Below are positions 152 through 13,003 of a stretch of 64,000 nucleotides of DNA, piece after piece. Under the pieces are notes generated by a model. It searched no databases. It was not told the origin of the DNA and saw only the letters and a program-made list of their open reading frames with translations. Numbering within the stretch: position 1 is the stretch's first letter; each line of letters opens with the position of its first letter. This DNA comes from Amycolatopsis sacchari. Its GTDB lineage: Bacteria > Actinomycetota > Actinomycetes > Mycobacteriales > Pseudonocardiaceae. Both the position numbers and the translations under genes were made by a program. The stretch spans positions 1-64,000 of the forward strand of contig NZ_FORP01000013.1 in assembly GCF_900114035.1 (NCBI RefSeq), given 5' to 3'.

Positions 152-240
152 TACCCGTCCGGCCGGGTAGGTGCGCCGGGCCCGATCGTCCGGCACCATG
201 AGGACGGTTGTGCGGGTGAACGAGACAACGGAGTCGGGAC

Positions 241-1446
241 ATGGCAGAGCGGAGTGCGCTCCACGAGCGCCGGGCGGTGCTGGAACGCGAATGGGCCCGC
301 TGGGTGCCGGCCAGGGCACGCCCGGAGACCCGGGAGCTGCCCAGCGAGGTGGCCGCGTCCTGGGCCCGCTCACTGTCCCTTGTGGACCCGGCGCGGGACA
401 GCGCGCCCGCGTCGGGTGACGAGGTGCGGGCCCGCTGGCGTGAGTCGCCGCTGCGCGGGCCGGTCACCGAACTGGCCGACGAGCTGCGCAGCATCGCCGA
501 CGACGCCGGGTTCGTCGCGGCCGTGACCGACGAGTCCGGCACGATCCTGTGGACCTGCGGCGGCCGGGTCATGCGGCGCCGCGCCGAGCAGGTGAACTTC
601 GCGCCGGGCGGCCGCTGGGACGAACCTGACATGGGCACGAACGCGTTGTCGCTGGCCTTGCGCACCGGGCGGCCCAGCAAGGTGTTCTCCGCGGAACACC
701 TGGTGGCCGCGCTGCACGGCTGGGTCTGCTACTGCGCGCCGATCCGGGACGCCAGCGGCCGTCAGCTGGGGGTGCTGGACCTCTCGACCACCTGGGACCG
801 CTCGCACCCGCTGGCCATGTCCACGGTGCGTACGCTGGTGACCGCGATCGAGTCACGACTGCACTCCGCCCCGGCCGCCGCGCCGGGGCTGCGGCTGTCC
901 TGCCTCGGCCCCGGCCACGCCACGCTCGACGGCTCCGCGTTGCGGCTTTCGCCGCGCCAGCTGGAGGTGCTCACCCTGCTGGCGCTGGAGCCCGCCGGGT
1001 TCTCACCGGAGGCGCTGCGCGAGGCTCTCTACGGCGATCTCCCCGTCACGATCACCACGATGCGGGCCGAGGCCTCGCACCTGCGGCGCCTGCTCAACGG
1101 GGCGCTCACCAGCCGCCGTTACACGCTCACGACACCGATCGACTGCGACGCCGCCGATGTGCTGACCGCGCTGAAATCCGGCGACACCGCGACGGCCGTG
1201 CACCGCTACACCGCACCCCTGCTGCCCGCCTCCGACGCACCGGGGATCACCCGGTGGCGTGACCATCTGGAGGTCGCCGTGCGGGAGGCGGTGCTGGCTT
1301 CGGGCAGCGCGGACCTCGCGCTGCGGTACGGCGAACGGCACCCGTTCGACCTGCAGGTCCACGAGTACGCCCACAACCTGCTCGCCCCCGGCGACGGGCG
1401 CCGGGGCATCGTCGCGGCGCGGGTGCGGGACGCGTTGCGGGACTGA
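241..1446 (+). CDS. GAF-domain transcriptional regulator
   Basis: This 401-residue protein resembles the actinobacterial AcoR-like regulators that lack an AAA+ domain. Residues about 20-85 hold the conserved leader with VAASWARSLSL. Residues about 85-205 form a GAF sensor domain, with the typical stretches GTNALSLALRTGRP and CAPIRDASGRQLGVLDLS. A C-terminal winged-helix region (about 235-300, LRLSPRQLEVLTLLAL) should bind DNA. The ATG at 241 has GGAG eight bases upstream. It sits between a divergent acyl-CoA synthetase and a downstream aldehyde dehydrogenase, and both carry the same candidate box, so it probably controls both. The ligand is unknown; an aldehyde or alcohol is a reasonable guess. 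Confidence 0.85.
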   Translation: MAERSALHERRAVLEREWARWVPARARPETRELPSEVAASWARSLSLVDPARDSAPASGDEVRARWRESPLRGPVTELADELRSIADDAGFVAAVTDESGTILWTCGGRVMRRRAEQVNFAPGGRWDEPDMGTNALSLALRTGRPSKVFSAEHLVAALHGWVCYCAPIRDASGRQLGVLDLSTTWDRSHPLAMSTVRTLVTAIESRLHSAPAAAPGLRLSCLGPGHATLDGSALRLSPRQLEVLTLLALEPAGFSPEALREALYGDLPVTITTMRAEASHLRRLLNGALTSRRYTLTTPIDCDAADVLTALKSGDTATAVHRYTAPLLPASDAPGITRWRDHLEVAVREAVLASGSADLALRYGERHPFDLQVHEYAHNLLAPGDGRRGIVAARVRDALRD

Positions 1447-1524: not shown

Positions 1525-3041
<1,517 letters not shown>

Positions 3042-3042
<1 letters not shown>

Positions 3043-3401
3043 TGGTGCGGCGGGTCTCGATGACCGGGGCCGCCGCGGCGCTGCTGCGCCGGCTCGTCGA
3101 GCAGCACGGGCCGGTGATGTTCCACCAGTCCGGCGGCTGCTGCGACGGCAGCGCGCCCATGTGCTACCCGGAGGGGGAGTTCCGGGTGGGCGACTCCGAC
3201 GTGCTGCTCGGCCACGTCGGCGACGGCACGCCGTTCTGGATGAGCGCGGACCAGTACGCCTACTGGCGGCACACGCATCTGACGGTGGACGTCGTCGAGG
3301 GAAGGGGCAGCGGGTTTTCCCTGGAAGCGCCCGAAGGCGTGCGTTTCCTGATCCGTTCCCGCCTGCTCACCGACGAAGAGCTGGCACTGCTGGAAAAGTG
3401 A
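3042..3401 (+). CDS. DUF779 family protein
   Basis: A 119-residue protein whose ATG overlaps the aldehyde dehydrogenase stop (TGATG), which implies translational coupling. The sequence FHQSGGCCDGSAPMCYP is the conserved cysteine-rich core of DUF779; such a cluster could bind metal. DUF779 genes commonly follow acetaldehyde dehydrogenase genes, but their biochemical role is not established. A strong terminator follows directly, so this closes the operon. Confidence 0.9.
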
Positions 3402-3416
3402 ACACAACCGCGAAAA

Positions 3417-3450
3417 GGGCCCGGACGCTCGTCCGGGCCCTTTTTCTTTT
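3417..3450 (+). terminator. Rho-independent terminator after aldehyde dehydrogenase/DUF779
   Basis: A perfect 10-bp stem (3417-3426 with 3431-3440) closes a GCTC loop and is followed by a T-rich run at 3441-3450. It is the only textbook terminator with a U-tract I found in the window. It separates the aldehyde dehydrogenase operon from the methanol dehydrogenase promoter. Confidence 0.92.
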
Positions 3451-3463
3451 CGTGCCACCACAT

Positions 3464-3483
3464 CCCTGTCCGAAAGGACGGGC
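3464..3483 (+). promoter_or_regulatory. Candidate MnoR-type operator, copy 1 (mdo promoter)
   Basis: CCCTGTCCGAAAGGACGGGC contains the inverted repeat GTCC-N4-GGAC. Eighteen of 20 bases match 11740-11759, in the intergenic region before mftD. It lies 123 bp upstream of the methanol dehydrogenase start, a suitable place for an activator. Binding by the nearby LuxR-type response regulator is inferred. Confidence 0.65.
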
Positions 3484-3606
3484 TTTCCCCCGCCACCAAG
3501 GCGTTCCTGCCCTCCCGTCGAACAGTTCCCGCCGTACCGGCCCCTGGTTAGCGTCGGGAGTGCGCGTCATCACAGTCGCTCTCGCGCAGGAAAGGACGGA
3601 CCGGTC

Positions 3607-4899
3607 ATGCAGGTCGACGAACTACTGAAACCGTTTCCCATCAAGGAGTTCCACCCGTTCCCGCGCGCGCTGCTCGGGCCGGGCGCACACGAGATGATCG
3701 GCCCGGAGGCGCTGAAACTGGGCTTCCGCAGGACGCTGGTGATGACGAGCGGGCTGCGGGGCTCGGACATCGTGCACAAGATCACCGAGTCGCTGAAGTA
3801 CCACGGGCTGGAGGTCGTGGTCTACGACAAGGTGGAGTCCAACCCCAAGGACTACAACGTGATGGACGCGGTGAAGCTGTACCAGGAGCACAAGTGCGAC
3901 AGCTTCGTGTCCATCGGCGGCGGCTCGTCGCACGACGCGTGCAAGGGTGCGCGGATCTCGCTGGCCCACGACGGGCGCAACATCAACGACTTCGAGGGGT
4001 TCAACAAGTCGGAGAACCAGAAGAACCCGCCGCACATCGCGGTCTCCACGACGGCGGGCACGGGTTCGGAGACCTCCTGGGCCTACGTCATCACCGACAC
4101 CACCACCGACCCGGACAACCCGCACAAGTACGTGGCCTTCGACGACGCCTCGGTCGCCACCCTCGCGGTGGACGACCCGGTGCTGTACTACGACTGCCCG
4201 GTGGACTACACCGCGCAGTGCGGGTTCGACGTGCTCGCCCACGCCTCGGAGCCCTATGTGGCACGCCTGAACTTCGAGCCGTCGATGGGCAACGCGCTGT
4301 ACGCCACCAAGCTGGTGGCCGAGCACCTGCGGACGGCGGCGTGGAACCCGCAGGACCTGTCCGGGCGGCAGGGCATGATGTACGCGCAGTACATCGCCGC
4401 GCAGGCGTTCAACTCCGGCGGCCTGGGCATCATCCACTCGATCTCGCACGCCGTCAGCGCGTTCTACGACACCCACCACGGGCTGAACAACGCGATCGCC
4501 CTGCCGCGGGTGTGGGCGTTCAACCTGCCCGTCGCCTACCGCCGCTACGCCGACCTCGCCGAGATGATGGGTGTGGACACCAGCGGCATGACGGTGGTCC
4601 AGGCCGCGGACGCGGCGGTGGCCGCCGCCATCCGGCTGCTGCGTGACGTCGGCATCCCCGAGCGGTTCACCGACATCCGCCAGGACACCTACTCGAAGAA
4701 CCGGCTCGGGCAGGGCCCGACGAAGTTCTACCAGCGCGCGTCGGTCATCAAGGGCGACGACGGGGACATCGACCGCGTCACGCACCACGTCCTCGGCGAC
4801 GCCTGCACCCCGGGCAACGCCAAGGAGTGCACCTTCGAAACGGTGCGCCCGGTCGTCGACCACTGCTTCAACGGCGACCTGGACGACCTGATCAGCTGA
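3607..4899 (+). CDS. mdo: NDMA-type methanol dehydrogenase (iron-dependent alcohol dehydrogenase)
   Basis: This 430-residue group III alcohol dehydrogenase closely resembles the methanol:NDMA oxidoreductase (Mdo/Mno) of actinomycetes, with an N-terminus starting MQVDELLKPFPIKEFHPFPR. It oxidises methanol and other primary alcohols. Its tightly bound NAD is reoxidised by an artificial acceptor in vitro and, in mycobacteria, by mycofactocin. The cofactor loop is GGGSSHDACKG. Metal ligands by family spacing are D208, H212, H277 and H291. The start has AGGAAAGGA upstream. A candidate response-regulator box precedes it, and MoxR, VWA and MftM-like genes follow on the same strand, as in the mycobacterial mno locus. 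Confidence 0.95.
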   Translation: MQVDELLKPFPIKEFHPFPRALLGPGAHEMIGPEALKLGFRRTLVMTSGLRGSDIVHKITESLKYHGLEVVVYDKVESNPKDYNVMDAVKLYQEHKCDSFVSIGGGSSHDACKGARISLAHDGRNINDFEGFNKSENQKNPPHIAVSTTAGTGSETSWAYVITDTTTDPDNPHKYVAFDDASVATLAVDDPVLYYDCPVDYTAQCGFDVLAHASEPYVARLNFEPSMGNALYATKLVAEHLRTAAWNPQDLSGRQGMMYAQYIAAQAFNSGGLGIIHSISHAVSAFYDTHHGLNNAIALPRVWAFNLPVAYRRYADLAEMMGVDTSGMTVVQAADAAVAAAIRLLRDVGIPERFTDIRQDTYSKNRLGQGPTKFYQRASVIKGDDGDIDRVTHHVLGDACTPGNAKECTFETVRPVVDHCFNGDLDDLIS

Positions 4900-4905
4900 G
4901 GATCC

Positions 4906-4935
4906 GCCGGGGGCGGGCGCGGGCCCGCCCCCGGC
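4906..4935 (+). terminator. GC-rich hairpin between mdo and the MoxR gene
   Basis: A perfect 13-bp stem (4906-4918 with 4923-4935) has a 4-base loop and no following T-run. It starts seven bases after the mdo stop. It may end part of the transcripts or protect the mdo 3' end, so that the enzyme is made in excess over its helper proteins. Confidence 0.6.
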
Positions 4936-4958
4936 ACCGCGACGAAGGAGGGCGTGAC

Positions 4959-5972
4959 GTGGGCGCACCGGCGTTCGATTCGGTCGATGAGGCCGCGAAA
5001 GCACTGGCGGCACAGGGTTATCTCACCGACCGGCGGCTGGCGACGATGGTCTTCCTGCTCACCCGGCTGGAACGGCCGGTGCTGCTGGAGGGGCCGGCCG
5101 GGGTGGGCAAGACCGAACTGGCGAAGACGCTGGCCGCCGCGACCGGTCGCCGGCTGCTGCGCCTGCAGTGCTACGAGGGGCAGGACGAGGCCAGCGCGCT
5201 CTACGAGTGGGACTACGGCAAGCAGCTGCTGTACACGCAGCTCCTGCGGGAGAAGATCGGCCAGCTCGTCGCCGACGCGCCGGACCTGCACGAGGCGGTG
5301 GACCGCATCGGCGCGCAGGAAAGCGTTTTCTTCTCCGAACGCTTCCTCGCCGCGCGCCCGTTGCTGGAGGCCGTGCGCTCGGAGGAACCCGTGGTGCTGC
5401 TGATCGACGAGATCGACCGCGCCGACGAGGCGCTCGAAGCCGTGCTGCTGGAAATGCTGGGGGAGTACCAGATCTCCGTACCGGAACTCGGCACGTTCAC
5501 CGCTCGCAACCGCCCGTACGTCATCCTCACGTCGAACAACACGCGCGATCTGGCAGCGGCGTTGAAACGGCGCTGCCTGCACCTGTTCCTCGACTACCCC
5601 TCGGCCGAACGTGAACTGGAGATCGTCCGCAGCAAGGACACCGGGCTGCCCGACGCGCTGGCGCGTGAGCTCGTGGCCGTCGTGCGCGGGTTGCGGGAGC
5701 TGGAGCTGCGCAAGTCGCCCAGCATCTCCGAGACGATCGACTGGGCGCGCACGCTCGCCGTGCTGGGCGTCGGCGAGCTGACCGCGCCGGTGCTGGCGGA
5801 CACGGTGTCGGTGGTGGTCAAGTACGACAAGGACCTGCGCAAGGCGCTGGAGGCGCTGCCACGTCTGCTCGGCGCGGAACTCGAAACTCCGGACGTGCCA
5901 ACGGAACCCGCGTCGCCAAAGGTCAGCGCGGACCGGGGGAGCCGGTCGTTCGCGCGCCCGAAGTCGCGTTAG
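4959..5972 (+). CDS. MoxR-family AAA+ ATPase
   Basis: A 337-residue AAA+ protein with Walker A GPAGVGKTE near residue 46, Walker B VVLLIDEIDRAD and sensor-type ILTSNNTRDL. MoxR/NorQ/CbbQ ATPases work as chaperones with VWA-domain partners to insert metals or cofactors or to remodel enzymes. The GTG at 4959 has GAAGGAGG seven bases before it; longer starts would run into the mdo hairpin. The VWA partner follows after 10 bp. By position it should mature or reactivate the methanol dehydrogenase; this client is inferred, not shown. Confidence 0.9.
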   Translation: MGAPAFDSVDEAAKALAAQGYLTDRRLATMVFLLTRLERPVLLEGPAGVGKTELAKTLAAATGRRLLRLQCYEGQDEASALYEWDYGKQLLYTQLLREKIGQLVADAPDLHEAVDRIGAQESVFFSERFLAARPLLEAVRSEEPVVLLIDEIDRADEALEAVLLEMLGEYQISVPELGTFTARNRPYVILTSNNTRDLAAALKRRCLHLFLDYPSAERELEIVRSKDTGLPDALARELVAVVRGLRELELRKSPSISETIDWARTLAVLGVGELTAPVLADTVSVVVKYDKDLRKALEALPRLLGAELETPDVPTEPASPKVSADRGSRSFARPKSR

Positions 5973-5982
5973 GAGCGGTGGG

Positions 5983-7473
5983 GTGGAAGCCAGTCTGCAC
6001 CGGTTCGCGCGGTTGCTGCGCCTGCGGGACGTCCGGGTCTCGGTGTCGGAAGTGCTCGACGCGCTCCGCTGCGCGGCCGCGCCCGGGGTGCTGGCCGACC
6101 GGGGCGTGCTGAAGGAGGCGTTGCGGGGCGCGCTCGTCAAGGACCAGCGGGACGATCCGGTGTTCGAGGAGCTGTTCGACGCGTTCTTCGGGCTCATCCG
6201 CCTCGGCTCCGCCGAGCAGCGGCCGGGTGCGGAGCCGGGGGAGGGGCAGCCGGGCGACGGTGAGGTGACGTTGTCCGAGGGGGCGAGCCGGACGACGCAG
6301 CGGGGGCTGACGCCGGGCAAACCCGCGGACCTGCGGGACTTCTTCGACCCGGCGGACCTCGCCGAGCGGTACAACCTGCACGAGGAGGAGAACAAGATCG
6401 AGCTGGCGTCCGTCACCGACGAGATCGTGTTCGACAAGGACAACGTGGTGACCGGAGGGGACGGCTACCACGTGCAGGTCGACGCCGAGCGGCTGCACAC
6501 CGCGGCTCCACCCGGGCAGCTGACGACGCAGCCGGGCGCACCGATGGACTCGACGCTGTCGCTGGCCGAGCACGACGCGCTGCTCGCGTGGCTCGACCGG
6601 GTGGAGGACGCGGGTGGCGACGAGGAGGACGCGGCGGCACTGCGCCGACGGCTGGCGGGGGTGCTTGCGAATCTGCCGGAGGCGCTGAAACAGCACGCCG
6701 AAGCGTTGCTGGAGCTGGAAAGGGAGAGCGCGGAGCCCAGCCGGGCGGCGGACGTGGCGCGGGCGGGGGAGAGCGAACGCGCCGAGCTGGAGGAAGCGTT
6801 GCGCAGGCTCGCCGCCAGGCTGGGCGGGGCGCTCACCTCCCGCAGACGGGTTTCCCGGGCCGGGCGGGTGGACGCGGGGCGGACGATGCGACGCAACATG
6901 CGGTTCGACGGCATCCCGTTCAGCCCGGTCACGGTCCGGCGGGCCGAGGACCGGCCGCGCCTGGTGGTGCTCGCCGACGTCAGCCTCTCGGTGCGGGCGA
7001 CCGCGCGGTTCACGTTGCAGGTGGTGTACGGGCTGCAGGACCTGTTCGCGCAGGTGCGGTCGTTCGCGTTCGTCGACGGCATCGCCGAGACCACGGAGCT
7101 GTTCGCGGAGCACCCGCTGGAGCGCGCGCTCGGCCTGGTCTTCGGCGGGGACGTGCTGGACGTGGACGCCGGCTCCGACTACGGCAGGGCCTTCGGGGAG
7201 TTCCTCGCCGAGCACTCCTCCGCGGTCACCCGCCGCACCACGGTGCTCGTGCTGGGGGACGGCCGCGGCAACGGCAACGACCCCAACCTCACCGCGTTCG
7301 CCGAGATCACGCGCCGGGCGAAGGAGACCATCTGGCTCACCCCGGAGCCCCGCTACTCGTGGGGGCTCGGCGGCTGCGACCTGCCCGCCTACGCCGAGTA
7401 CTGCCGCCGCGTGCGCGTGGTCCGTGATCTGTCCGGTTTGGACCGGGTGGCACTCGACCTGGTGGCGCGGTGA
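5983..7473 (+). CDS. VWA-domain protein (CoxE-like), MoxR partner
   Basis: This 496-residue protein has a helical N-terminal part, a charged low-complexity middle and a C-terminal von Willebrand A domain from about residue 320. The MIDAS motif is DVSLS near residue 331. CoxE-like proteins work with MoxR ATPases as adaptor and substrate-recognition subunits. The GTG start follows an AGGAG ten bases after the ATPase stop. The stop overlaps the next gene in GTGA, so ATPase, VWA protein and methyltransferase are very probably co-translated. Confidence 0.88.
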   Translation: MEASLHRFARLLRLRDVRVSVSEVLDALRCAAAPGVLADRGVLKEALRGALVKDQRDDPVFEELFDAFFGLIRLGSAEQRPGAEPGEGQPGDGEVTLSEGASRTTQRGLTPGKPADLRDFFDPADLAERYNLHEEENKIELASVTDEIVFDKDNVVTGGDGYHVQVDAERLHTAAPPGQLTTQPGAPMDSTLSLAEHDALLAWLDRVEDAGGDEEDAAALRRRLAGVLANLPEALKQHAEALLELERESAEPSRAADVARAGESERAELEEALRRLAARLGGALTSRRRVSRAGRVDAGRTMRRNMRFDGIPFSPVTVRRAEDRPRLVVLADVSLSVRATARFTLQVVYGLQDLFAQVRSFAFVDGIAETTELFAEHPLERALGLVFGGDVLDVDAGSDYGRAFGEFLAEHSSAVTRRTTVLVLGDGRGNGNDPNLTAFAEITRRAKETIWLTPEPRYSWGLGGCDLPAYAEYCRRVRVVRDLSGLDRVALDLVAR

Positions 7474-8369
7474 CGGCCGTGCTGGACCCGCTCGGGTCGT
7501 ACCCGGCGGGTCAGTACCTCGACGACGTCGTGCGAGTGGTGCGCGCCGAGGACGACGGCGGGCCGGCGGTGGTGCGGACCGAGCACTTCCGGCTGTCCCG
7601 CGCGGGACGCCGGATCGAGGTCGCGCACCGGCTTCGCCCGGAACAGCTCGACAACGGGCTGACCGGGCTGCTGATCGACGAGCTGTTCGCCCCGGGCTGG
7701 CTGTGCGGCCAGGACGTCTTCGAGCGGGTGTTCACCGGCGTCGTGCGCAGCACCCTGCCCGACCCGCGGCAGGCGTGGTGCACCTTCTACGCCAACACGC
7801 TCGCCCACCTGCGCGAACCACGCCACGCGCCACCGCTGATCGCCGGGATCGCGCCCGTCTACTCGCGTGTGCTGAGGCTGGTGCGGCCCGGCAGCGTCCT
7901 GGACCTCGGTTCCTGCTTCGGGTTCCTGCCGCTGCTGCTCGCGCAACGGCCGCGCACCACCGTGACCGCCTCGGACGTCGTGCCGGGGACGATGCGGGTG
8001 CTGGACACCGTGGCCGCTGACCGCGGTGTGCCGCTGCGCACCCTGGTGTGCGACGCCGCCCGCGTCCCGCTGCCGGATTCCACTGTGGACACCGTGACGA
8101 TCGTGCACCTGCTGGAACACCTGCCACCTGTCGAGGGCGAGGCGGTGCTGGCCGAAGCGCTGCGGCTGGCCCGGTCCACCGTGGTCGTCGCGGTGCCGTT
8201 CGAGGACGTGCCGAACGCCGACTACGGGCACGTCCGCCGGTTCGACCTGGCGACGCTGACCGAACTCGGCGCGGGAACCGGCTGGCGCGCGCGGGTGTCA
8301 GCGTTCCACGGCGGCTGGCTGGTGCTGGACCGGCCGCGTCAGAGCAGTCCGCGCTTGCCCGCCTCGTAG
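7470..8369 (+). CDS. mftM: SAM-dependent methyltransferase, probable mycofactocin oligosaccharide methyltransferase
   Basis: A 299-residue class I methyltransferase with SAM motif VLDLGSCFGFLP near residue 145 and a later LLEHLPPVEGEAVL element. Its place after mdo-moxR-VWA and next to a MnoSR-type system mirrors the mycobacterial locus, where the homologous gene encodes MftM, which methylates the sugar chain of mycofactocin. The residue pattern is that of a class I enzyme; the MftM assignment rests mainly on this gene order. It overlaps the VWA gene by 4 bp. Its 3' end overlaps the response-regulator gene on the other strand by 31 bp. Confidence 0.72.
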   Translation: MTAVLDPLGSYPAGQYLDDVVRVVRAEDDGGPAVVRTEHFRLSRAGRRIEVAHRLRPEQLDNGLTGLLIDELFAPGWLCGQDVFERVFTGVVRSTLPDPRQAWCTFYANTLAHLREPRHAPPLIAGIAPVYSRVLRLVRPGSVLDLGSCFGFLPLLLAQRPRTTVTASDVVPGTMRVLDTVAADRGVPLRTLVCDAARVPLPDSTVDTVTIVHLLEHLPPVEGEAVLAEALRLARSTVVVAVPFEDVPNADYGHVRRFDLATLTELGAGTGWRARVSAFHGGWLVLDRPRQSSPRLPAS

Positions 8370-8986
8370 ACGGCCTCCGCGCGGCTGGACGCGCCGATCT
8401 TGCGCAGGACGTTGCGGACGTGGAACTTGACCGTGGTCTCCGAGATGTACAGGCGGGCCCCGATGTCGCGGTTGCTCAGCCCGCGGGCCAGCAGTTCCAG
8501 CACGTTCTGCTCGCGGGCGGTCAGCACAGGCTCCTCGCGCGGCGTGCGGATCGAGCGGACCATCGCCGAGGCGGAGCGGGAGTCGAAAGCGCTTTCCCCG
8601 CGTGCCACCGCGCGGATCGCCGACACCAGGCCCGTGGTCTCCACGTCCTTGATCACGTAGCCGCGCGCGCCGCGGTGGATCGCCTCCACCACGAGCGCGT
8701 CGTCGAGGAACGTGGTCAGCACCAGCACCCCGGTCTCCGGGTGCCCGGCGGCCAGCTCCGCACACAGGTCGAGGCCCTCGGTGTCGGAGCCGGTGGACAG
8801 CTTGAGGTCCAGCAGCACGATGTCCGGCCGCGTGCGGTCCACCACCGCCCGCGCCTCGGCCGCGCTCGCCGCCTCGCCGATCACGGTGAGGTCGTCCTCG
8901 CGGTCCAGTATCGTCCGCAGCCCCTGCCGCACGATGGCGTGGTCGTCCACCAGCACGATGCCCAGCGTCCGCTGCCCGGTGATCAT
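8339..8986 (-). CDS. mnoR: LuxR/NarL-type response regulator (MnoR-like)
   Basis: A 215-residue response regulator. The receiver domain has acidic residues D14/D15, phospho-acceptor D60 in IVLLDLKL and lysine in GYVIKD. The C-terminal LuxR helix-turn-helix (about 148-210) contains LTAREQNVLELLARGLSN and TVKFHVRNVLRKIGA. Its ATGA start overlaps the kinase stop. In Mycobacterium smegmatis, MnoSR activates the methanol dehydrogenase gene; the same neighbours here support an equivalent role. I propose it binds the 20-bp dyads at 3464 and 11740. The symbol is given by synteny. Confidence 0.85.
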   Translation of the reverse strand: MITGQRTLGIVLVDDHAIVRQGLRTILDREDDLTVIGEAASAAEARAVVDRTRPDIVLLDLKLSTGSDTEGLDLCAELAAGHPETGVLVLTTFLDDALVVEAIHRGARGYVIKDVETTGLVSAIRAVARGESAFDSRSASAMVRSIRTPREEPVLTAREQNVLELLARGLSNRDIGARLYISETTVKFHVRNVLRKIGASSRAEAVYEAGKRGLL

Positions 8987-10314
8987 CCGGCCTCCAGTGG
9001 CAGCGGGATCTCCAGCAGCACCTGGATCCCGCCGATCCGGGAACGCCGGATGGCCAGCGTTCCGCCCAGTTCCTCGGTCCGCGCGCGCATGTTCGCCAGC
9101 CCGCGGTGCGTGCCGGCCAGGTTCGTCGCCGACGCCAGGCGCAGTGTCCGGCGCAGCTGCCCGGGGTCGCCGTCCCCGTCGTCGGAGATCGACAGCCGGA
9201 TCCGGTCGGGCAGGTACCGCAGGCGGATGCGCGCGCGGGTGGCGTTGGTGTGCATCACGGTGTTGAACAGCGCCTCGCCGGTGATCCGCAGCAGCGAGTG
9301 CTCGGCCTCGCCCGGCAGCGGCACCGGCTCGCCGAGCACGGTGACGCCCACCTCGAGGTCGGTCGGAAGGTGCACTGTGGACAGTCGTTCGAGGAGCACG
9401 GGCAGCGAGCCGGGCGGCTCGGATTCGTTGTGGTGCAACGCGTAGATCGCGGCCCGCAGCCGTTCCACCGCGTGCCGGGTCAGCGCCTTGGCCTCGGTGA
9501 GTTTCTCGCGCACGGCGGCGAGGTCGGCGTCTGGTTCCGTCAGGTCGCTGCGGCAGATCTCGATCATCATCCCGGCGGAGAGCACGTCCTGGGTGACGCT
9601 GTCGTGCAGCTCCCGCGCGATCCGGTGCCGCTCGTCGTCCAGCGCCTGCCGTTGCATCACCCCGATGAGGCGGCGCTGGGTCTCCTGGAGTTCGGCGTTG
9701 CGCGCCGCCAGGTCGCGCGCCTGCTGCTCGGCCGCCTCGGACAGCTGCTCGGTGCGGCCCCGCAGCCGCATCGTGGCGTGCACGAGGAACGAGTTGTGCA
9801 GCGCGACCGCCGCCTGGTTGGCCAGCACGCGCAGCACCGCGAGATCGGTGTCGGCCACCTCCATCCCGGCGGCGGGCCGGGCGGCGATCCCGCCCACCGG
9901 CTCGCAGTCGAGCGTCATCGGCACGCGCACTCCGCTTCCGGTGGGTTCACCGGCCTCCCACGGTCTCGTCCGCAGGATCCGCAGGTGCGCCAGCGCGTCC
10001 GGCGGGAACAGCCGCTCGTCCTCCACGAGGTTTTCCCCAGCCAGCAACAGGAACCGCGGCCGGGCCGCGCGCAAGGCGCCATCGGCGAGGGCGAACAGCA
10101 GCCAGTCGGCCTGCACGTGGTCCGCCGCCGCGCGCACGACCGCTTCGACGAGCGCCCGCGGTCCTTCCCCGGTGCGCACGAGGGCCCGCGAGATGCGGTC
10201 GAGGGCGCCCACGGCGCGCTCCAGCCGCTCCGCGGTTCGGACGTACTCGGGGTAGTAGGACCGTTTGCCGGATCGCACGCCGGTCAGCGCGCCGAGGTAG
10301 TCGTTGGCCGTCAT
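8983..10314 (-). CDS. mnoS: GAF-domain sensor histidine kinase (MnoS-like)
   Basis: A 443-residue cytoplasmic kinase with no membrane segment. A GAF-like region covers about 35-190, then a short coiled coil (EQQARDLAARNAELQETQ). The HisKA_3 dimerisation domain has phospho-acceptor H237 in RIARELHDSV. The ATPase domain carries an N-box (GEALFNTVMHTNA) and a G-box (SISDDGDGDPG). The likely signal is a soluble small molecule such as an alcohol or aldehyde. It starts four bases after the dehydrogenase stop and overlaps the response-regulator gene by 4 bp, so dehydrogenase, kinase and regulator form one operon. Confidence 0.87.
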   Translation of the reverse strand: MTANDYLGALTGVRSGKRSYYPEYVRTAERLERAVGALDRISRALVRTGEGPRALVEAVVRAAADHVQADWLLFALADGALRAARPRFLLLAGENLVEDERLFPPDALAHLRILRTRPWEAGEPTGSGVRVPMTLDCEPVGGIAARPAAGMEVADTDLAVLRVLANQAAVALHNSFLVHATMRLRGRTEQLSEAAEQQARDLAARNAELQETQRRLIGVMQRQALDDERHRIARELHDSVTQDVLSAGMMIEICRSDLTEPDADLAAVREKLTEAKALTRHAVERLRAAIYALHHNESEPPGSLPVLLERLSTVHLPTDLEVGVTVLGEPVPLPGEAEHSLLRITGEALFNTVMHTNATRARIRLRYLPDRIRLSISDDGDGDPGQLRRTLRLASATNLAGTHRGLANMRARTEELGGTLAIRRSRIGGIQVLLEIPLPLEAG

Positions 10315-10318
10315 CGGT

Positions 10319-11536
10319 CTACAGCGCCTGCCGGAACAGCGCGGCGATGTCGGCGGCGTTCGCCGTGCGCGGGTTGGTCGCCAGGCACGCGTCCTGCAGC
10401 GTGGTGCGGGTCAGGGTGCCGATGTCGGCTTCGGTGACGCCCAGCGCGGCGAGCCCGCGCGGCACCCCCACCGCGTCGGCCAGCTCACGCACCCGGCACG
10501 CGAACGACTCGGCGACCTCGGCCGCCGACCTGCCCGCGACGTCCACCCCGGTCGCCGCGGCCAGCGGCACGAACCGCTCCGGGTCCGTGGCCGCGTTGAA
10601 CCGGATCGTGTGCGGCAGCAGCACCCCGTTGAGCACGCCGTGCGGCGCGTCGAGCAGGCCGCCGACCTGGTGGCTCATCGCGTGCGTGATACCGAGGATC
10701 GCGTTGGTGAAGGCCATCCCGGCCTCCAGCGCGCCCTGCGCCATCGCGATCCGCGGTTCGGCGGCGGCGGGGTGGACCATCGTGTGCAGCAGGTTGCGCG
10801 TGATCAGGGTGGCCGCGTGCAGGGCGTGCTGGTCGGTCAGCGGGTTGTGCGCCCGCGACACGAACGACTCGACGGCGTGGGTGAGCGCGTCCAGGCCGGT
10901 TGCGGCGTTCAGCTCGTCGGGCATGGTGGTCAGCAGGCGCGGGTCGACGATCGACACGTCCGGCACGAGCGTGCGGCTGATGATCGTGATCTTGGTGTGC
11001 TGGGTCGTGTCGGTGACGACCGCGAACTGCGAGACGTCGGCGCCGGTGCCGGACGTGGACGGCGCCATGACCAGCGGCGGGATCGGCTGCACGACGCGGT
11101 CCACGCCCGCGTAGCCGAGGATCGTGCCGCCGTTGCCGGACAGGATCGCCACGCCCTTCGCCGCGTCGATGCACGAGCCGCCGCCCACGGCGATGATCAC
11201 GTCCGCGCCCGCCGCCGCGTACTGCTGGTAGGCGGCCTCGATCTCGTGGTCCTTCGGGTTGGGCGTGACGCCGGAGAACACCACCGGCCGCAGCCCGACC
11301 AGTTCGAGGTGGCCGCGGGCCTCCTCGACCCAGCCCGCCTCGATCAGCCCGGGATCGGTCACGAGGAACGGCCGCCGGGCGCCGACGCGGAGCGCGGCGT
11401 GCCCGAGCTCGGCCAGCGAGCCGGGGCCGAACACGATCTCGGGGACGTGGAACTTCGCCAGCTCCGCCGGTGCGCCCGCGGCGGCCCCGCACGGTCCGGT
11501 CAGCGGTTCGGCCTCGTCGAGGGCTCTGCGCGGCAC
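10319..11536 (-). CDS. Iron-containing alcohol dehydrogenase (1,3-propanediol dehydrogenase type)
   Basis: A group III dehydrogenase distinct from Mdo. Its family core begins FHVPEIVFGPGSLAEL, the NAD loop is VGGGSCIDAAKG and the metal-site regions are GLDALTHAVESF and GITHAMSHQVGG. It matches by position the 1,3-propanediol dehydrogenase next to mnoSR in mycobacteria. I chose the GTG at 11536 (GGAGG five bases before; 405 residues). The ATG at 11668 also has a good AGGAG, but it would add 44 codons with only about 73 percent G/C in third position, far below the rest. It is first in an operon with the two-component system. Confidence 0.85.
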   Translation of the reverse strand: MPRRALDEAEPLTGPCGAAAGAPAELAKFHVPEIVFGPGSLAELGHAALRVGARRPFLVTDPGLIEAGWVEEARGHLELVGLRPVVFSGVTPNPKDHEIEAAYQQYAAAGADVIIAVGGGSCIDAAKGVAILSGNGGTILGYAGVDRVVQPIPPLVMAPSTSGTGADVSQFAVVTDTTQHTKITIISRTLVPDVSIVDPRLLTTMPDELNAATGLDALTHAVESFVSRAHNPLTDQHALHAATLITRNLLHTMVHPAAAEPRIAMAQGALEAGMAFTNAILGITHAMSHQVGGLLDAPHGVLNGVLLPHTIRFNAATDPERFVPLAAATGVDVAGRSAAEVAESFACRVRELADAVGVPRGLAALGVTEADIGTLTRTTLQDACLATNPRTANAADIAALFRQAL

Positions 11537-11739
11537 GGCGACCTCCGGCGGTTCGCGGTCACCGCGTCCTCGCGGCGACCGGTCCCACCGTACGGCACGA
11601 CGGCGGCCGTCGAGAACACCCGCGGCCCCGGTGCCGGGCGGTTTCGGCAGGTCGGACAGTCGTGGCATGACCTCGCTCCTCGTCGGGCCGACGCTACCGC
11701 CCCGGGGAGGGCGGGACACCTCTCCGCGCGGGCCGGCCG

Positions 11740-11759
11740 CCCTGTCCGATCGGACGGGC
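11740..11759. promoter_or_regulatory. Candidate MnoR-type operator, copy 2 (divergent promoter)
   Basis: CCCTGTCCGATCGGACGGGC contains a perfect 12-bp palindrome (GTCCGATCGGAC, 11744-11755) and matches 18 of 20 bases of the mdo box at 3464-3483. It lies 71 bp before mftD and upstream of the dehydrogenase-mnoSR operon, so it could serve both directions and give autoregulation. Confidence 0.65.
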
Positions 11760-11830
11760 AGGTCTTCCCCCCGAGCCGGTTTTCCCTAATACTGACACCC
11801 GGTGCCAAAATAGGGAAGGACGGCCGGGAC

Positions 11831-13003
11831 ATGGCGAGCACGAAGGACTGGTTCGAGACGATCGCCGAGGCGCAACGGCGCGCGAAGAAGCGGCTGCCGC
11901 GCTCGGTCTACCTCGCGCTGGTCGCCGGTACGGGGAAGGGCCTGACGACCGCCGACAACGTCGCCGCGTTCGACGAGCTGGGGTTCCTGCCGAGGGTCGC
12001 GGACCTGCCGGCGAAACGCGACCAGGCGACCACCGTGCTGGGGCAGGACGTCTCGCTGCCGGTGGTCATCTCCCCGACGGGCGTGCAGGCGGTGCACCCG
12101 GAGGGCGAGGTCGCGGTGGCGCGGGCCGCGGCGGCGGCGGGCACGGCGATGGGGCTCAGCTCGTTCGCCAGCCGGTCGATCGAGGACGTGGCGGCGGTCA
12201 ACGACAAGACGTTCTTCCAGATGTACTGGGTGGGCACGCGGGACCAGCTGCTCGCGCGGGCCGAGCGGGCGCGCAAGGCCGGGGCGAAGGCGCTGATCGT
12301 GACGCTGGACTGGTCGTTCGACTCGGCGCGGGACTGGGACGCGCCGATGATCCCGGAGAAGGTGGACCTCAAGGCGGCACTGCACTTCGCGCCGGAGGTG
12401 CTGCGCAAGCCGCGGTGGCTGTGGAGCTTCGCGAAGACCGGCAAGCTGCCGGACCTGACGACGCCGAACCTCGCCGCCGAAGGGGAGGCCGCGCCGACGT
12501 TCTTCGGCGCGTACGGGCAGTGGATGGGCACGCCGCCGGTGACGTGGGAGGACGTGGCGTGGCTGCGGGAGCAGTGGGGCGGCCCGTTCGCGGTGAAGGG
12601 GATCATGCACCCCGACGACGCCCGGCGCGCGGTGGACGCCGGCTGCACGGCGATCTCGGTGTCCAACCACGGCGGCAACAACCTCGACGGCACCCCCGCG
12701 TCGATCCGCGCCCTCCCGGCGATCGTCGACGCGGTCGGCGACCAGGTGGAGGTGCTGCAGGACGGCGGCATCCGGCGGGGCTCGGACGTGGTGAAGGCGC
12801 TCGCGCTGGGCGCCAGGGCGGTGCTGATCGGCCGCGCGTACCTGTGGGGCATGGCGGCCGCGGGCGAGCGGGGCGTGACCAACACCCTGGAGGTGCTGCG
12901 CCAGGGCATCGACTCCACCCTGCTCGCCCTCGGCAAGGCCAGCGTCCACGAGCTGAGCCGTGAGGACCTCGTCATCCCGGACGGGTTCGCGCTTCACGGG
13001 TAG
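11831..13003 (+). CDS. mftD: Pre-mycofactocin synthase MftD (FMN-dependent hydroxyacid-oxidase family)
   Basis: A 390-residue FMN TIM barrel that follows MftD throughout, starting with DWFETIAEAQRRAKKRLP. Where lactate and glycolate oxidases have a catalytic His-Gly-Gly-Arg loop, this protein has SNHGGNNLDGTPAS, as MftD does (H280 kept, arginine replaced by asparagine). MftD deaminates the Val-Tyr-derived intermediate to make the redox-active dicarbonyl of mycofactocin. The start is ATG 11831, with GGGAAGGA upstream. It is divergent from the dehydrogenase-mnoSR operon and shares its candidate operator. mftA, B, C, E and F are not in the window, so it is either displaced or a second copy. Confidence 0.92.
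   Translation: MASTKDWFETIAEAQRRAKKRLPRSVYLALVAGTGKGLTTADNVAAFDELGFLPRVADLPAKRDQATTVLGQDVSLPVVISPTGVQAVHPEGEVAVARAAAAAGTAMGLSSFASRSIEDVAAVNDKTFFQMYWVGTRDQLLARAERARKAGAKALIVTLDWSFDSARDWDAPMIPEKVDLKAALHFAPEVLRKPRWLWSFAKTGKLPDLTTPNLAAEGEAAPTFFGAYGQWMGTPPVTWEDVAWLREQWGGPFAVKGIMHPDDARRAVDAGCTAISVSNHGGNNLDGTPASIRALPAIVDAVGDQVEVLQDGGIRRGSDVVKALALGARAVLIGRAYLWGMAAAGERGVTNTLEVLRQGIDSTLLALGKASVHELSREDLVIPDGFALHG

Follow-up and report, generated by a model that had tools for sequence, protein, structure and literature searches.

The window analysed here, the first 64,000 nucleotides of contig NZ_FORP01000013.1 of Amycolatopsis sacchari (assembly GCF_900114035.1, forward strand; 71% GC), carries near its start a cluster of genes for alcohol oxidation, comprising a methanol dehydrogenase (mdo) dependent on N,N-dimethyl-4-nitrosoaniline (NDMA), a second alcohol dehydrogenase (ADH2), an acetaldehyde dehydrogenase, the two-component system MadSR and mftD, a gene for synthesis of the cofactor mycofactocin. 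Three copies of a 20 base-pair (bp) palindrome, here termed boxes, stand in front of these genes. Sequence comparison makes it likely that the boxes are operators of the response regulator MadR and that the enzymes and an autoregulated madSR lie under one alcohol switch, which plausibly takes in mftD as well. The features are given below with the NCBIfam model, score and cut-off for each gene.

153..172, no strand: third MadR-type box, 21.4 bits, rank 3 of 17 in the genome profile search
241..1446, + strand: DhaR-like regulator, weak match (NF008485, 74.3 bits, far under the cut-off of 551)
1525..3042, + strand: exaC, acetaldehyde dehydrogenase (NF050026, 963 bits, cut-off 900)
3042..3401, + strand: small open reading frame (ORF), 0 NCBIfam families matched
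3417..3450, + strand: terminator-like hairpin with T run upstream of the mdo box, read directly from the sequence
3464..3483, no strand: MadR-type box of mdo, 17.0 bits, 123 bp before mdo, from the exact genome search
3549..3554, + strand: TAGCGT, -10-like element of mdo, 65 bp past the box
3607..4899, + strand: mdo, NDMA-dependent methanol dehydrogenase (TIGR04266, 693.4 bits, cut-off 625)
4959..5972, + strand: MadB-like AAA ATPase (NF047784, 386.5 bits, under the cut-off of 475)
5983..7473, + strand: MadC-like von Willebrand factor A (VWA) protein (NF047783, 278.2 bits, under the cut-off of 600)
7470..8369, + strand: mftM, mycofactocin oligosaccharide methyltransferase (NF041255, 358 bits, cut-off 200)
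8339..8986, - strand: madR (mnoR), response regulator, proposed box binder (NF047785, 348.6 bits, cut-off 300)
8983..10314, - strand: madS (mnoS), sensor histidine kinase (NF047786, 634 bits, cut-off 500)
10319..11536, - strand: ADH2, iron-type alcohol dehydrogenase, ErcA-like (best NF041833, 456 bits, under the cut-off of 550)
11691..11696, - strand: TAGCGT, -10-like element of ADH2-madS-madR, 43 bp from the box
11740..11759, no strand: MadR-type box common to ADH2-madS-madR and mftD, 22.1 bits, rank 1 in the genome
11794..11806, no strand: degenerate MftR-operator-like palindrome GACACCCGGTGCC, 1 mismatch to GGCA-N5-TGCC
11831..13003, + strand: mftD, pre-mycofactocin synthase (TIGR03966, 709.9 bits, cut-off 470.85)

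The sequence-only reading that preceded this analysis had recognised the two-component system and called it mnoSR; the NCBIfam names, used here, are madS and madR. The MadB and MadC candidates both fell under their equivalog cut-offs and are named "-like" for that reason. ADH2 likely starts at the GTG at 11536, behind GGAGG, and the small ORF is presumably a DUF779 protein.

The dyads at 3464-3483 (CCCTGTCCGAAAGGACGGGC) and 11740-11759 (CCCTGTCCGATCGGACGGGC) are identical at 18 of 20 positions, as the sequence-only reading had it, and are imperfect palindromes, matching their own reverse complement at 12 and 16 of 20 positions, respectively. The pattern CCTGTCCGNNNGGACGGG occurs without mismatch at exactly these two places in the genome (7,587,467 bases, 72 contigs). 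With one mismatch it occurs at seven places, and with up to two at 125 (70 on the forward and 55 on the reverse strand), while the reversed pattern gives 95; the loose look-alikes are therefore background. At the two of the seven one-mismatch places that were viewed with wider flanks (L113, L114), scores reach at most 11.1 bits and no second regulon was found. The third box of the window, ACCCGTCCGGCCGGGTAGGT at 153-172, had been missed; it lies 68 bp before the start of the DhaR-like gene, and once it is added the claim that the sites stand only upstream of genes of one process holds. Scored with a 20-bp matrix trained solely on the mdo upstreams of other genomes, the window being excluded from the training set, the boxes at 153, 3464 and 11740 reach 21.4, 17.0 and 22.1 bits. 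About 8.5 sites of at least 17 bits are expected in 7.59 Mb under a third-order Markov model, and three sites inside 12 kb are thus far beyond chance.

The genome-wide ranking of sites rests on pattern and profile searches. The profile search, which used sequence only and scored 150 of 12,787 candidates, placed 11741 first and 153 third of 17 matches; the mdo site is missing from this list, the profile being too weak for it. On the 20-column matrix one site on contig C67 (C67:84060, 18.2 bits) scores above the mdo site; this site and C31:169446 (15.9 bits) were set aside because both lie within ORFs. When scoring is restricted to the inner 18 columns, the three boxes of the cluster take the top three ranks in a set made up of the 28 places of the pattern CCYNNCCGNNCGGNNRGG plus the mdo site.

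Upstream regions from 80 named mdo loci (1.59 Mb), 79 of which entered the matrix, yielded a 20-bp palindrome, ACCTGTCCGATCGGACAGGT, at 20.5 bits, while 400 shuffled upstreams peaked at 13.0 bits. The 80 loci hold 125 sites of at least 17 bits, 120 of them within 450 bp before mad, mft, exaC, dhaR-like or mftM genes, and their reversed sequence holds none. Seventy-five sites precede mdo, a count that is partly circular, 45 precede other genes of the system and are independent of the training set because they are not mdo sites, and 5 are unassigned. A box of at least 15 bits was found before mdo in 71/80 loci and before ADH2 in 37/55; in M. litorale it lies 131-150 bp before mdo. Among genus relatives with madR loci, the mdo box (at least 18 bits) is present in 10/10 and the ADH2 box (at least 23 bits) in 9/9 pieces holding ADH2, and a site of at least 12 bits precedes the DhaR-like gene in 7 of the 9 that have one. 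By their sequence, the dyads at 3464 and 11740 are diverged members of this palindrome, which is conserved in actinobacteria. By alignment, the mdo box of the window lies about 20 bp nearer its gene than in the genus relatives L147-L155, and the shifted position suggests turnover of the site.

The distribution of the box follows that of MadR. The madR gene is present in 58/80 loci, 57 of which have an mdo box of at least 15 bits, and in loci with full flanks the median mdo box is 24.0 bits with madR (55 loci) versus 15.9 bits without it (15 loci; p = 6e-6). In 200 genomes of the family, with MadR called by the NCBIfam cut-off, the strict pattern CCTNNCCGATCGGNNAGG occurs in 48 and MadR in 54, and MadR is found in 27/48 genomes with the pattern versus 27/152 others (p = 6e-7). 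For the symmetric strict box, a post hoc subset picked after the list had been seen, the figures are 24/28 versus 30/172 (p = 2e-12). Of the 33 sites found in genomes with MadR, 23 are no more than 10 kb away from madR. MadR over the cut-off is missing in 21/48 genomes with a strict match, and the window's own genome has MadR and no strict match. The reversed strict pattern gave 0 matches in the 200 genomes, a control that flatters the result because it contains CTAG, which is rare in such genomes. For M. smegmatis MnoR, one genomic palindrome 137 bp before mno, binding in electrophoretic mobility shift assays (EMSA) and microscale thermophoresis (MST), and positive regulation are reported (PMC11303327), and the MSMEG_6236-6242 cluster is reported to rise with ethanol in the wild type (PMC6529628). 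Taken together, this makes the box very probably an operator bound by MadR, which corresponds to MnoR of M. smegmatis. The proposal that the response regulator encoded between the two dyads is the natural candidate was well founded: the box tracks MadR across genomes, and the MnoR palindrome is published.

Boxes of 27-31 bits were also observed in another genus of the family (L245-L249, about position 1500), some 350 bp before molybdenum hydroxylase genes. These hydroxylases are aldehyde or glyceraldehyde oxidoreductase-like, under cut-off, with two of the five loci annotated. The boxes are 26-29 kb from madR in four genomes, and an ORF on the opposite side is a possible alternative target.

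The spacing between box and promoter adds to this picture. An element like TAGCGT was found in 39 of the 71 mdo upstreams with a box and in none of the remaining 32, at 60-63 bp (20 loci), 83-85 bp (10), 72 bp (4), 49-51 bp (4) or 45 bp (1) from the nearest box. Before ADH2 it lies 42-45 bp from the box in 15/37 loci with a box, and the window has it 65 bp from the box of mdo and 43 bp from that of ADH2. The spacing classes are about whole helical turns apart, which would fit an activator obliged to face the polymerase. In the proposed mechanism, an alcohol or its oxidation product would cause MadS to phosphorylate MadR, and MadR dimers would then occupy the 20-bp palindrome and activate the promoter downstream of it. 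The predicted targets are mdo-madBC-mftM, ADH2-madS-madR (autoregulation) and the set of the DhaR-like gene and exaC; as MadR would activate all three sets, alcohol and aldehyde oxidation would come on together. The box at 11740 also faces mftD, so that the penultimate step of mycofactocin synthesis would probably be raised along with the enzymes that need the cofactor, and the repressor MftR may temper mftD through the degenerate operator at 11794.

Support for the broader form of this reading comes from mft genes in other lineages. A box of at least 17 bits lies within 450 bp before mftA, mftB or mftD in 35/80 loci, in 31 of which it also stands before a divergent mdo. On the mft side, a TAGCGT-like element lies 42-45 bp from the box in 22/35 and 20-22 bp from it in 5/35, with 5 scattered matches for the control motif. 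In three Nocardioides, where mft is co-oriented with mdo, a separate box stands before mftA. The 50 loci with mftA or mftB include 29 with a box of at least 17 bits and 12 with an exact MftR palindrome, divided into MadR box only (26), both (3), MftR palindrome only (9) and neither (12; Fisher test, p = 0.017, uncorrected for relatedness). A strong MadR box on an mft promoter would thus usually go with a missing MftR palindrome; this is treated as a lead, because the MftR matches of two of the three loci with both (L091, L098) lie inside the box itself and because of the uncorrected relatedness. Some loci of Streptomyces and Saccharopolyspora (L026, L027, L030, L034, L037, L042, L043, L060) carry paired boxes 51-54 bp apart (about five helical turns) in the stretch that separates mdo from the mft operon. 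From these sequences, joint control of cofactor and enzymes is likely common in general, yet not in M. smegmatis nor for this genome's mft cluster. No account of MadR or MnoR control of mft genes was found among the listed titles and abstract openings of one open-access library.

The genome itself encodes one MftD over the cut-off, that of the window, and one MftC, on contig C34 with mftR, mftA, mftB, an old yellow enzyme (OYE), mftF and an NDMA-dependent alcohol dehydrogenase (NCBIfam names). This mft cluster (5-22 kb, without mftD) has OYE-type and FixC-like flavoprotein genes in addition to the NDMA-dependent alcohol dehydrogenase. No MadR box above 7.5 bits was found on C34, and no mft gene but mftD has a box here; the further sites foreseen at mftA-F do not occur in this genome, whereas many other genomes have them. 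An MftR palindrome lies within 1.5 kb of mftC in all 18 relatives and in this genome, in none of which a box of at least 9 bits was found near mftC. MftC is over the cut-off in 19/19 genus genomes (G001-G018, G000), and MftD in 11, with a partial match in one more. The sequence-only reading had assigned the 11740 site to mftD and the dehydrogenase alike, and it does face both. Judged by its conservation, however, it is primarily the box of ADH2-madS-madR: it is kept there in relatives without mftD, which makes the box old and mftD a newcomer.

The origin of mftD is consistent with this. Five Pseudonocardia genomes, two of which share the same MftD, encode proteins 86.9-88.9% identical to the window's MftD. 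In a quick tree of 70 rows the window's protein joins theirs at 99 in the Shimodaira-Hasegawa-like approximate likelihood ratio test (SH-aLRT), the sole support measure of that tree. A position beside Saccharopolyspora (100/97 in a careful tree of 44 rows) was dropped after Pseudonocardia had been added. Mdo, MadR, MadS and ADH2 of the window are 84-94% identical to their nearest relatives. By sequence, mftD is a probable horizontal arrival. The five Pseudonocardia mftD promoters have a box-like site at -106 to -116 (16.6, 14.7, 12.2, 9.4 and 9.4 bits) with a perfect MftR palindrome nearer the gene, at -67 or -68, and the window's mftD has a strong box at -91 and a one-mismatch MftR palindrome at -37. 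Tested against T-N2-GGCA-N5-TGCC-N2-A, the site at 11794-11806 departs once from GGCA-N5-TGCC, and the leading T is absent; another one-mismatch match overlaps the 11740 box. With about 0.04 MftR-like palindromes expected in 71 bp (0.61 per kb), the one at 11794 is weak alone, and the order shared with Pseudonocardia adds weight to it. Inspected by eye, this box of the window has a right half, CGGACGGGC, that matches Pseudonocardia L222 and a left half that matches the ADH2 box of the genus.

Several findings weigh against the proposed mechanism. The box is absent from 18/55 ADH2 promoters and 9/80 mdo promoters. The boxes at 153, 3464 and 11740 differ from the consensus at 5, 5 and 3 of 20 positions, and binding of MnoR in MST is reported to be weakened by two mismatches and abolished by four (PMC11303327). 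The mft genes of M. smegmatis fall outside the MnoR regulon, given its single MnoR site. A TANNNT -10 element was looked for between the 11740 box and mftD and none was found. In the 10 same-genus pieces with madR, mftD stands at the ADH2-madSR box in none; ten relatives have mftD elsewhere, 72-74% identical and with no other mft gene within up to 20 kb, and all ten of these genes are preceded by a perfect MftR palindrome, at -53 to -74. No MadR box was found near them, the 14.7-bit site of L145 being 6.5 kb off.

These points would fit an arrangement in which the 11740 box serves ADH2-madS-madR alone and the incoming mftD keeps its own MftR-type promoter, the more so as relatives that lack mftD also keep, on the side of ADH2, both the box and the TAGCGT 43 bp from it. 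We consider this unlikely, though not negligible: the nearest relatives of this mftD, in Pseudonocardia, have the box-like sites described above, and in many other lineages boxes are shared with mftD or with the mft operon. That a cofactor gene lies under the switch of its enzymes is backed by those lineages and likely in general; for the window's mftD a shared switch is plausible. A wider picture, possible but tentative and falling somewhat short of probable, is that actinobacteria hold two interchangeable mycofactocin switches, one being the repressor MftR, which responds to acyl-CoA, and the other MadSR, which responds to alcohol. In this picture mftD, transferred to the ADH2-madSR box, may here have formed a chimaeric box beside a decaying MftR operator, and would be a cofactor gene on its way from the first switch to the second.

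A different regulator, such as the DhaR-like protein of 241-1446, might instead bind the boxes. Its gene is a member of the regulon, and loci that have it tend to carry stronger mdo boxes (p = 0.004), which also counts against MadR as the binder. This tie is weaker than that to MadR in the same loci, the median box is still 20.4 bits in the 43 of 70 loci with full flanks where no DhaR-like gene is nearby, and the mno palindrome is reportedly bound by MnoR (PMC11303327); such a binder is very improbable. That the dyads are chance or RNA hairpins with no role in DNA binding can hardly be entertained: although several hundred loose look-alikes can be drawn at 71% GC, including the 125 matches against 95 above, the position before the same genes is conserved, the reversed controls hold no matrix sites, and the spacing to -10-like elements is phased on both strands.

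Alcohol oxidation depends on the cofactor, whereas the repressor known for its genes, MftR, responds to long-chain acyl-CoA, which leaves the induction of mycofactocin synthesis to be explained. If enzymes and cofactor do share an operator that answers to alcohol, this would explain the induction directly in many actinobacteria and tie it to exact sites. Comparable arrangements exist in the ErcA/ErdR-type alcohol regulation and the control of pyrroloquinoline quinone (PQQ) enzymes in pseudomonads, where a NarL-type response regulator lies beside alcohol oxidation genes, as here; these systems, likened by description and not by operators, differ in cofactor and regulator family. The MftR operator, too, is a palindrome before mycofactocin genes, of the form GGCA-N5-TGCC, perfect near mftC here and in relatives and degenerate before this mftD. 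Its sequence is different, however, and MftR is described as a TetR-type repressor answering to long-chain acyl-CoA (PMC8728441); the dyads are not MftR operators. The closest likeness is to mno/MnoR of M. smegmatis, in which a two-component system also lies beside methanol dehydrogenase and a second alcohol dehydrogenase, and a palindrome about 137 bp before the dehydrogenase gene is reported with positive regulation. The likeness to that palindrome (Dubey and Jain 2019, via PMC11303327) rests on position and setting and not on letters, and M. smegmatis has a single site, whereas the present cluster has three boxes, one of which also faces mftD.

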